Origin: Actinomycetota bacterium
GTDB taxonomy: Bacteria > Actinomycetota > Actinomycetes > S36-B12 > CAIYMF01
NCBI GenBank assembly: GCA_020161245.1
Contig: JAIUOK010000012.1
Location: 1 to 64,000, forward strand
DNA length: 64,000 nucleotides
Reading direction: 5' to 3'
Shown piece after piece: positions 3,129-62,849 of this stretch; within the stretch, counting starts at the first letter, position 1; each line of letters starts with the position of its first letter. The notes beneath the pieces were generated by a model. The model was not told the DNA's origin. It searched no databases and worked only from the letters and a program-made list of their open reading frames with translations. A program made the translations under genes and the position numbers.

Positions 3129-3184
3129 GTTACACCCGCGACTGCACAGAAGCGGCCCCGTTCTTGTGCAGTCCCGGGTGTAAC
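3129..3184. terminator. Long imperfect hairpin ending the leftward catabolic operon
   Basis: Two arms of about 22 bases, beginning GTTACACCCG and ending CGGGTGTAAC, pair with one mismatch and a one-base bulge around a GC-rich loop. It starts 20 bp past the stop of the HAD gene, read leftward, and lies just before the DUF4188 start. It is likely the terminator of the nine-gene operon. Confidence 0.6.
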
Positions 3185-15618: not shown

Positions 15619-15655
15619 TCCCGCCGGGAGGTCCGAGAAGGCCCTCCCGGCGGGA
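15619..15655 (+). terminator. Strong hairpin between the aryl-phosphotransferase and Rieske oxygenase genes
   Basis: Two perfect 13-base arms (TCCCGCCGGGAGG and its complement) flank an 11-nt loop, 34 bp after the phosphotransferase stop. No U-tract follows and the Rieske gene starts 55 bp later in the same direction. It may partly terminate, mark an RNA-processing site or protect the upstream message, setting unequal expression of the two halves of the operon. Confidence 0.55.
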
Positions 15656-37657: not shown

Positions 37658-38494
37658 GTGACCACCGACGACATCGAGTACGACGACGTCCTCCTCGACG
37701 AGCTGCGCGAGCTGGCCGTCGAGGCGGCCCGCGAGGCCGGCGCGCTGGTGCTCGAGGCGCGGCGCTCGGACGTGTCCGTGGCGGGTACGAAGTCGAGCGC
37801 GACCGACGTCGTCACCGAGGTCGACCGGCGCAGCGAGGCCCTGCTGGTAGACCGGCTGCTCTCCAGCCGCCCGGACGACGGCATCCTCGGCGAGGAGGGG
37901 GCCGACCACGTCGGCGAGACCGGCGTCCGGTGGGTCATCGACCCGATCGACGGCACCGTGAACTACCTCTACGGGCTGCACCACTGGGCTGTGTCGGTCG
38001 CCGCGGAGATCGACGGGATCGTCGTCGTCGGCGTCGTCGAGGCCCCGGCGCTCTGCGAGACCTACGTGGCCGTCCGTGGCCGCGGCGCCCGCCGGCACGA
38101 CGGCGACGGCGTCCACGATCTGTCCGTGAACGACCCCGTGGCGCTCGACCGGGCGCTGGTCGCGACCGGCTTCGGGTACCTCGCAGACCGGCGTTCTGCG
38201 CAGGGCCGGGTCGTGTCTCAGGTCGTGCCGCGGGTGCGCGACATCCGCCGCGACGGCGCGTGCAGCCTCGACCTGTGCGGGCTGGCGTCCGGGCGGCTCG
38301 ACGCGTACTTCGAGCGCGGCCCGCAGGCGTGGGACCTCGCGGCCGGCGGCCTCGTGGCCACCGAGGCGGGCGCCCGGCTCGAGGGTCTGCACGGGAGGGC
38401 CGCGGGGGAGGACCTCATCGTGGCCGCGGGCCCCGCGCTCTTCGGTCCCCTGCACGACCTGCTCGCCGAGCTCCGGGCCGACACCGACGACTGA
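37658..38494 (+). CDS. Inositol monophosphatase family protein
   Basis: This 278-residue magnesium-dependent phosphatase has GEEG and DPIDGTVNYLYGLHHW, the two metal-binding motifs of the family, plus the C-terminal QAWDLAAGGLVATEAG. Substrate could be inositol phosphate, histidinol phosphate or another sugar phosphate. GTG start at 37658 in a stretch without a strong ribosome-binding site; CAGACT six bases before could be a -10 box. A perfect palindrome follows its stop. Confidence 0.92.
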   Translation: MTTDDIEYDDVLLDELRELAVEAAREAGALVLEARRSDVSVAGTKSSATDVVTEVDRRSEALLVDRLLSSRPDDGILGEEGADHVGETGVRWVIDPIDGTVNYLYGLHHWAVSVAAEIDGIVVVGVVEAPALCETYVAVRGRGARRHDGDGVHDLSVNDPVALDRALVATGFGYLADRRSAQGRVVSQVVPRVRDIRRDGACSLDLCGLASGRLDAYFERGPQAWDLAAGGLVATEAGARLEGLHGRAAGEDLIVAAGPALFGPLHDLLAELRADTDD

Positions 38495-38499
38495 GTGGT

Positions 38500-38551
38500 C
38501 GCTCTGGATGGGTGAGCGACGGCTATAGCCGTCGCTCACCCATCCAGAGCG
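38500..38551. terminator. Perfect 52-bp palindrome between convergent genes
   Basis: The left arm runs 38500-38525 (CGCTCTGGATGGG ... GGCTA) and the right arm 38526-38551 is its exact reverse complement, with no unpaired centre. It lies five bases past the stop of the inositol phosphatase gene and four before the stop of the convergent hexapeptide-repeat gene. It is the natural bidirectional terminator of both, though its perfection is unusual. Confidence 0.7.
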
Positions 38552-38555
38552 GGTC

Positions 38556-39074
38556 CTAGTCGAGGCGGCGCAGCTCCGCGCGATACCAGTGGCCGTTGTG
38601 GACGTACTTCTCGACGGCGTAGCGGAAGGCGTCCTCGCCCACGGCGTCCTCGCGGATACGGGCCGGGACGCCGAGCGCCATGGCCCGCGTCGGCACCTCG
38701 GTGCCGTTGGGCACCAGGGCCCCGGCGCCCACCAGCGCGCCGCGCCGGACGACGACGCGGTGCAGCACCACCGACCCGGACCCGATGAGGCAGTCGTCCT
38801 CGACGGTGCAGCCCTCGAGGTGGGCGTTGTGGCCCACCACGCACCGGTCGCCGATCACGGTGGGCAGGTCCTCCGTGCAGTGGACGACGGTGCCGTCCTG
38901 CACCGAGGTCTGCGACCCGACGACGATCCGCCCGTGGTCGCCCCGCAGCACCGCGGTGGGCCAGACGGTCGACTCCGGCCCGATCACGACGTCGCCGATC
39001 ACGACCGCATCGGGGTGGACGAAGGCGGCCGGGTCGATCTGCGGCGAGCGTTCGCCGATCGCGTACAGGGGCAT
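38556..39074 (-). CDS. Gamma carbonic anhydrase-like hexapeptide-repeat protein
   Basis: This 172-residue left-handed beta-helix protein has repeated hexapeptides (VVIGDV, VIGPES, VWPTAVLRGDHGRIVVGSQTSVQDGTVVHC). The zinc-site His residues expected for gamma carbonic anhydrases occur in VVHC and VVGHNAHLEG. It is similar to the YrdA/CaiE-type family, where activity is often unproven. ATG at 39074 follows GGAGG. It converges on the inositol phosphatase gene. Confidence 0.9.
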   Translation of the reverse strand: MPLYAIGERSPQIDPAAFVHPDAVVIGDVVIGPESTVWPTAVLRGDHGRIVVGSQTSVQDGTVVHCTEDLPTVIGDRCVVGHNAHLEGCTVEDDCLIGSGSVVLHRVVVRRGALVGAGALVPNGTEVPTRAMALGVPARIREDAVGEDAFRYAVEKYVHNGHWYRAELRRLD

Positions 39075-39322
39075 AGCGGACCTCCGTCGGGCGCTGTCCG
39101 GGTGGACGGTGTGAGCCATCACACCACTGCCGTGTCCCGCTCCGCCGGGGGGTCGTGTCGCCCCGGAGCGCCAGGTGCGGCACAATCCCCCGCACGTGAC
39201 GGCTCGGGCCGCCGGAACAAACCGGGGGATCGGGCCGTTGACGGGCTGCCAGAACGCGAACGAGACCTCCGACGACGCAGGCCGACGGCGCGATACGCAC
39301 GGAACTGAGGACGACTGAGACG

Positions 39323-39619
39323 ATGGCCACCGACTACGACGCCCCCCGCAAGACCGACGACGAGCTCGCCGAGGACTCCCTCGAGGAGCTCAAGGCGCAG
39401 CGTGCCACCAAGGCCGCCTCGAGCGTCGACGTCGACGAGGTGGAGCTCGCGGAGAACCTCGAGCTCCCCGGCGCCGACCTGTCCGACGAGTCGCTGACGG
39501 TGCGCGTCATCCCGCGCCAGGCCGACGAGTTCACCTGCTCCAAGTGCTTCCTGGTCCACCATCGCAGCCAGCTGGCCAAGGAGGTCGGCGGGCAGCCGGT
39601 CTGCCGCGACTGCGCCTGA
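39323..39619 (+). CDS. DUF4193 family zinc-finger protein
   Basis: This 98-residue acidic protein is the conserved actinobacterial DUF4193 family. It starts MATDYDAPRK, has a Glu-rich middle, and ends in a four-Cys ribbon (FTCSKCFLVHH and VCRDCA). High expression and essential-like conservation are typical, but the function is unknown to me. It is preceded by 248 bp of non-coding DNA that contains a possible TTGACG -35 (39238-39243) without a clear -10. A strong hairpin follows. Confidence 0.9.
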   Translation: MATDYDAPRKTDDELAEDSLEELKAQRATKAASSVDVDEVELAENLELPGADLSDESLTVRVIPRQADEFTCSKCFLVHHRSQLAKEVGGQPVCRDCA

Positions 39620-39637: not shown

Positions 39638-39677
39638 GACGAGCGCCCCGTCCGCACCCGCGGGCGGGGCGCTCGTC
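39638..39677 (+). terminator. Terminator hairpin after the DUF4193 gene
   Basis: GACGAGCGCCCCG pairs perfectly with CGGGGCGCTCGTC, and an inner CCGC/GCGG pair extends the stem past one mismatch. It starts 18 bases after the stop. A second palindrome (CGTGGCCG/CGGCCACG, 39721-39736) lies further on; the 163 bp up to the next gene otherwise show nothing. Confidence 0.7.
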
Positions 39678-44158: not shown

Positions 44159-44164
44159 TACGCT
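44159..44164 (+). promoter_or_regulatory. -10 element of the OB-fold / DUF3159 operon (leaderless)
   Basis: TACGCT ends six bases before the GTG start at 44171. No ribosome-binding site is seen. Confidence 0.5.
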
Positions 44165-53189: not shown

Positions 53190-53229
53190 CGAGGGCGGGG
53201 CGGGACCGCGAGGTCCTGCCCCGCCCTCG
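53190..53229 (+). terminator. Aconitase terminator hairpin
   Basis: Two arms of 18 bases (CGAGGGCGGGGC ... GGGACC and its complement with one G-U pair) flank GCGA, starting 14 bases after the aconitase stop. Confidence 0.75.
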
Positions 53230-55123: not shown

Positions 55124-55157
55124 GCGGGGGCCCGGTACTCCGGTACCGGGCCCCCGC
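55124..55157 (+). terminator. Perfect hairpin after the sugar-binding protein gene
   Basis: GCGGGGGCCCGGTAC pairs perfectly with its complement around TCCG, six bases after the stop. It probably acts as a partial terminator or mRNA stabiliser so that the binding protein is made in excess over the ATPase and permease. Confidence 0.75.
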
Positions 55158-62812: not shown

Positions 62813-62849
62813 GACGGCCCGGGCACCGACGATCGGTGCCCGGGCCGTC
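62813..62849 (-). terminator. Terminator hairpin of the fatty-acid oxidation gene
   Basis: A perfect 17-bp stem (GACGGCCCGGGCACCGA with its complement) closes a 3-nt CGA loop, starting 25 bases past the stop of the minus-strand gene. The remaining intergenic DNA to 62655 holds no other clear feature. Confidence 0.75.

Follow-up and report, generated by a model that had tools for sequence, protein, structure and literature searches.

A dispersed family of 52-bp palindromes at gene ends in a draft actinobacterial genome

The palindrome at 38500–38551 of the window, the whole 64-kb stretch of DNA analysed here, is one copy of a lineage-specific dispersed 52-bp inverted repeat, beyond whose ends the sequence is less conserved. 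Copies of this repeat gather just past stop codons and favor the gaps between convergent genes. The palindrome probably marks the end of transcripts arriving from both sides, serving as a terminator without a U-tract, as a block to 3' exonucleases, or as both.

An earlier note on this DNA described a perfect, loopless palindrome of 52 bp that fills nearly the whole gap between two convergent genes, and both descriptions were borne out. Inverted-repeat search finds two arms of 26 nt each (38500–38525 and 38526–38551) that are 100% complementary with 0 nt between them. By our own gene calls, the stops of the convergent pair (38494 and 38556) enclose 61 bp, of which the palindrome takes up 52. 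The hexapeptide-repeat protein on the far side is presumably gamma-carbonic-anhydrase-like. Long palindromes are unstable, a property that concerns mainly ones longer than 52 bp. Table 1 gives the coordinates of the palindrome, its parts and its neighbors.

Table 1. The palindrome, its parts and the two flanking genes (positions in the window; G009 is the sister genome).
Feature	Position	Strand	Basis or remark
52-bp perfect palindrome, member of the dispersed family	38500..38551	none	Inverted-repeat search and family-model score
Central 8 nt, GCTATAGC	38522..38529	none	Most variable part of the family; self-complementary in this copy
Left foot, CGCTCTGGA	38500..38508	+	Arm part common to the G009 cousin family
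Right foot, reverse complement of the left foot	38543..38551	-	Comparison with the G009 cousin family
Left-arm part that differs between the families	38509..38516	+	TGGGTGAG here, GGTCTGAG in most G009 copies
Inositol monophosphatase family gene (PF00459)	37658..38494	+	Stops 5 nt ahead of the palindrome
Hexapeptide-repeat protein gene (PF00132)	38556..39074	-	On the other strand; its end is 4 nt from the palindrome

Within the window the palindrome stands alone. Its 28-nt core occurs once at up to 3 mismatches and never in 100 dinucleotide shuffles, and neither the core at that threshold nor the family model finds a second family copy in the 64 kb. A 75th candidate copy, at window position 44159, had 7 mismatches and was dropped as chance. 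Rfam yields no match at gathering score in the window. Strong inverted repeats outside the family also lie between window genes, at 62813–62849, 55124–55157, 53190–53229, 15619–15655, 3129–3184 and 39638–39677, and these are perhaps ordinary terminators.

Searching for the same sequence elsewhere in the genome, a check that the earlier note had proposed, shows that the site is far from unique. The window's own genome (G000) is a draft assembly of 4.29 Mb in 95 contigs, and a similarity search of it, in which the best 40 of 388 candidates were scored, gave at least 80 matches on both strands. When the outer arms are fixed and the 10 nt of the centre left free, the pattern fits 56 places in G000 with no more than 3 mismatches; its reversed control fits none. 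Trained on 74 copies, a covariance model finds at least 75 places (at least 150 rows over both strands) and scores the window copy, itself one of the 74 training rows, at 87.8 bits on the plus strand and 86.2 bits on the minus strand. These repeated copies across G000 rule out a single-site reading: the palindrome is real, as the earlier note held, but what the note took for a singular perfect site is a member of a repeat family. The exact 12-nt arm occurs 66 times in G000, and the 4 occurrences outside palindromes among the matches listed equal the 4 of the reversed control; the repeated unit is therefore the palindrome and not the arm.

The earlier note had also worried about an assembly artefact, and a false hairpin joint is a natural concern in a draft of 95 contigs. 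Yet the sequence recurs at 75 or more places, with varied surroundings on 31 contigs among the matches listed, and 71 of 74 copies are imperfect, which leaves an artefact next to no probability. Outside G000, the exact pattern was absent from a wider collection of genome contigs, to which the window's own genome possibly does not belong. A phage or plasmid origin was rejected: phage and plasmid records contain no similar DNA at E 0.01, and the exact pattern is absent from viral contigs. A literature search, covering open PMC literature only, found no description of this palindrome family.

To place the copies relative to genes, we read the window and 36 stretches around copies, 340 kb in all, which hold 74 copies when as many as 5 outer-arm mismatches are allowed. 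The stretches were chosen because they hold copies, and genes were called with our own simple caller. A stop codon lies within 20 nt of 64 of the 74 copies, and 59 of these 64 sit 1–14 nt downstream of it; for 5 of the 74 the nearest stop is a TGA within the palindrome itself. Of the 10 copies more than 20 nt from any stop, 7 are in divergent gaps. Start codons lie within 20 nt of 4 of the 74 copies. No copy is wholly inside a called gene, and some gene calls run into a copy.

The type of gap matters as well. Among gaps of at least 60 bp, a copy is present in 23 of 33 that are convergent, 34 of 92 that are tandem and 7 of 40 that are divergent (Fisher p=1e-5 for convergent versus divergent and p=0.04 for tandem versus divergent); since loci were chosen by the presence of copies, these rates cannot be read as genome-wide, and the comparison between gap types is fairer than the raw copy rates. 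Successive copies less than 3 kb apart bound 31 intervals: 23 with a single gene, 5 with a same-strand run, 2 with a mixed set and 1 with no called gene. The predominance of single genes and same-strand runs is the pattern expected if copies mark where transcription units end. A copy is not required at every gene end, since 10 of 38 convergent gaps of 55–120 bp in the loci read lack one; another 15 convergent gaps are shorter than 30 bp, too short for a copy, and fall outside the gap comparison.

This placement bears on two other explanations. The first is that a DNA-binding protein of the nucleoid, of replication or of recombination recognises the palindrome, which lies between genes by happenstance. 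Dyad symmetry would suit such a site, as would the keeping of the foot in two genomes whose arms differ, as if the arms followed a changing protein. The copies, however, are biased to gene 3' ends and convergent gaps and not to promoters (4 of 74 near a start), and 52 bp of symmetry is long for a single site, so that we consider a protein site improbable. The second is an integron-like attC recombination site, in which each cassette gene would carry its own palindrome. Runs of single genes, each closed by a copy (loci L066 and L072), have this appearance, and at one locus G000 has an extra alpha/beta hydrolase gene (PF07859, Abhydrolase_3; L080:12076–13140) between two copies where the sister genome G009 has a single copy (L156). 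But some copies separate convergent genes, which are on different strands, and the best match to the integrase model TIGR02249 in the draft of G000 reaches 78.5 bits against a cut-off of 265, with weak matches in 14 of 14 control genomes as well. Cassette sites are thus highly improbable, and with no integrase above cut-off in the draft we set the integron reading aside.

Variation among the copies reveals what the family shares. All 26 pairs are perfect in 3 of 74 copies and the outer 22 pairs in 11, and mismatches peak within the central 8 nt. The four central pairs are unpaired in 44, 15, 31 and 21 of the 74 copies, together 111 of 255 unpaired cells; the remaining unpaired cells are scattered along the stem (pair 5, for example, has 20 and pair 17 has 17). 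The family is thus built as a stem of some 22 pairs whose centre, about 8 nt long, varies, and the missing loop of the window copy is therefore accidental. Two inner types can be distinguished, one of 55 copies that resemble the window copy and one of 19 copies with the centre consensus GGCGTCGGTATACCGACGC.

Pairing is kept beyond what shuffles give, at 88.5% of cells versus 82.2%, although differences between subfamilies account for much of this signal. Subfamily 1 taken alone shows 14 complementary double changes compared with 6.0 in shuffles, a value reached in 2 of 2000 shuffles; 8 of the 14 fall at a single pair and may be inherited. Replication template switching is proposed, in the available text of PMC8794818, to make and repair perfect hairpins. 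Because hairpins may be mended in this way, kept symmetry alone is no proof of selection on RNA.

As RNA, the palindrome would form a very stable hairpin. The window copy has a folding energy of −53.7 kcal/mol whichever strand is read, and the median of the 74 copies is −42.3 kcal/mol; random 70-mers drawn from the sister genome average −27.3 (sd 7.1), a comparison in which both lengths and genomes differ. Two features are looked for in intrinsic terminators. The first, a stable hairpin shortly past the stop, is present, at 1–14 nt in 59 of the 74 copies. The second, a U-tract, is absent: the 10 nt after the palindrome contain a mean of 1.66 T across 59 copies. A consensus terminator scan of 38000–39400 returned nothing. 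Of the earlier note's suggestions, a terminator agrees best with the location after stops and the preference for convergent gaps. Perfection is no family trait (3 of 74).

A stable hairpin with no U-tract is the ground for proposing a two-way transcript end that works without one. Copies would be gained mostly at gene 3' ends, the transcript of either strand would fold into a very stable hairpin just past the stop codon, and this hairpin would then end transcription without a U-tract, shield the 3' end from exonuclease, or do both. We infer termination or 3'-end protection from the placement of copies, their gene contexts and the variation of the stem. The "I-shaped" terminators of high-GC actinobacteria likewise have no U-tract and are of unrelated sequence at each gene. 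The G000 hairpins resemble them in being GC-rich and right past the stop, and differ from them in forming one copied sequence family. At some orthologous ends in the sister genome an ordinary hairpin takes the place of a copy (L177, L179), clearly so, by eye, at 3 of 18 empty ends. Most of the 18 show no clear hairpin by eye, which counts against the proposed role.

Alike copies at unrelated genes need copying, and this speaks for a selfish REP- or MITE-like mini repeat that brings no host benefit and piles up at gene ends by tolerance or by targeting. Comparison with relatives favors the same explanation: of 21 orthologous ends with a copy in G000, 18 have none in G009, clear matches occur in 2 of 148 genomes of the order under stricter filters, and one copy (L089) parts two G000 genes whose G009 counterparts (L154) overlap by 4 nt, one of the gene pairs being only 49% identical. 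Against it, the Y1 transposase family PF01797, which matches in 5 of 14 control genomes, has no match in the draft of G000; the flanks of 59 copies carry no constant GTAG or CGTC tag; and among 20 proteins beside copies outside the window (17 matching some Pfam family, 3 none) no transposase family was found. The clustering within a few nucleotides of stops and the convergent bias are also tighter than mere tolerance suggests. A purely selfish repeat is, on balance, unlikely, and a REP/RAYT element in particular was rejected for want of both a Y1 transposase in the draft and a constant tag in the 59 flanks.

The relatives fit the earlier note's suggestion of a recent insertion. By eye, none of 10 other genomes of the genus has a copy in the 190 bp past the orthologous gene; 6 of the 10 keep the same neighbor close to that gene, and the hairpin that G005 has at this place differs in sequence. 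Looking for the same sequence in relatives, as the note had also advised, turned up a clear cousin family in 1 of the 10, G009. Under stricter filters the family model matches 4 of 148 genomes of the order, namely G000, G009 (30 rows) and, weakly, G007 (one place) and G011 (two places). Two of these three weak matches are palindromes of other sequence, and the one at L164 is absent from the palindrome-finder list. G011, from another genus of the same family, has a different palindrome, GGTCGAGCG...CGCTCGACC, at L163:2109 and L164:5763.

The two arm types are nearly exclusive to their genomes. A DNA search finds one place in G009, at 76% identity. The type peculiar to G009, GGAGGTCTGAG...CTCAGACCTCC, is found at 20 places there, for the most part on the foot CGCTCTGGA, and occurs nowhere in G000 at up to 3 mismatches. 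Of the G000 copies 73 of 74 are nearer the G000 arms, with 1 tie; the 17 copies of G009 likewise include 1 tie, while 15 have a closer match to the G009 arms and 1 to those of G000. A stop codon is no more than 15 nt away from 14 of these 17. The sequences point to a clear cousin family in G009, with the same foot and different arms. That an arm type should be genome-specific without a known means of spread is the mildly surprising part.

Orthologous ends allow occupancy to be compared. Of 61 reciprocal gene ends between G000 and G009, 21 have a copy in G000 (19 copies), and 3 of these (2 independent sites) are occupied in G009, compared with 1 of the 40 ends without a G000 copy (Fisher p=0.11, not significant); part of the G009 sequence was chosen because it holds copies, and this pushes the overlap upward. 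Turnover is high, because 18 of the 21 ends occupied in G000 are empty in G009. Concerted replacement at shared sites gained no significant support, as 3 of 21 against 1 of 40 is not a significant difference. As a tentative idea, less likely than not, each species may spell one transcript-ending palindrome in its own way, with the foot kept, the middles of the arms changed together in nearly all copies of a genome and the symmetry preserved.

Several known systems offer points of comparison. In having many similar copies between genes, the G000 family agrees with dispersed palindromic repeats in general. REP palindromes tagged with GTAG or CGTC are 20–40 bp long with an unpaired tag at one end (PMC3733652). 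The likeness lies in short, high-copy intergenic palindromes with hypothesised roles in termination and mRNA stabilisation, and the CGTC type is alike in being apparently without a dedicated transposase. The G000 family differs in its 52-bp length, its near symmetry, the absence of a constant GTAG or CGTC tag and the absence of a Y1 transposase from the draft. The word "actinobacteria" does not occur in the available text of PMC3733652.

Uptake-sequence terminators of Neisseria and Pasteurellaceae (PMC1852404) also consist of inverted pairs of a genome-specific motif enriched at tail-to-tail sites, and theirs are used as terminators. Their motif, however, is about 9–11 nt with generally at least 1,000 occurrences, compared with 66 for the 12-nt arm in G000, and the G000 family has no U-tail. 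We rejected an uptake sequence because lone arms are not in excess, either in the window (26 matches versus 32 expected) or in the genome (4 outside palindromes among the matches listed versus 4 for the control). The SLS families (PMC2267715) are alike, by description alone, as repeated stem-loops of which some are proposed as terminators.

Other palindromes and neighborhoods came to light in the stretches read. A second dispersed family, CGAGTAACTGGCGTTG..., has nearly perfect arms and two copies (L073:1640–1701 and L089:5069–5130), and a third, with GCGTGTAACAG feet, also has two (L079:1468–1536 and L089:832–897). Loci L065 and L066, on G000 contig C33, are rich in copies and encode DUF4062/NACHT, DEAD helicase, NERD and DUF559/MTES_1575-like proteins; this region is possibly defence-rich.

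Were species-specific spelling true, it would imply fast loss and re-spread by an unknown, non-Y1 mobiliser. Alternatively, it would imply homogenisation in place, possibly tracking a binding protein that itself changes, the arms being kept matched by template switching. The family is an easily traced, lineage-specific set of gene-end palindromes in a little-studied actinobacterial group. Its occupied and empty sites, together with two sister arm types, provide a handle on how a repeat spreads without a known transposase, and the same sites can be used to ask whether a copied hairpin replaces ordinary terminators.
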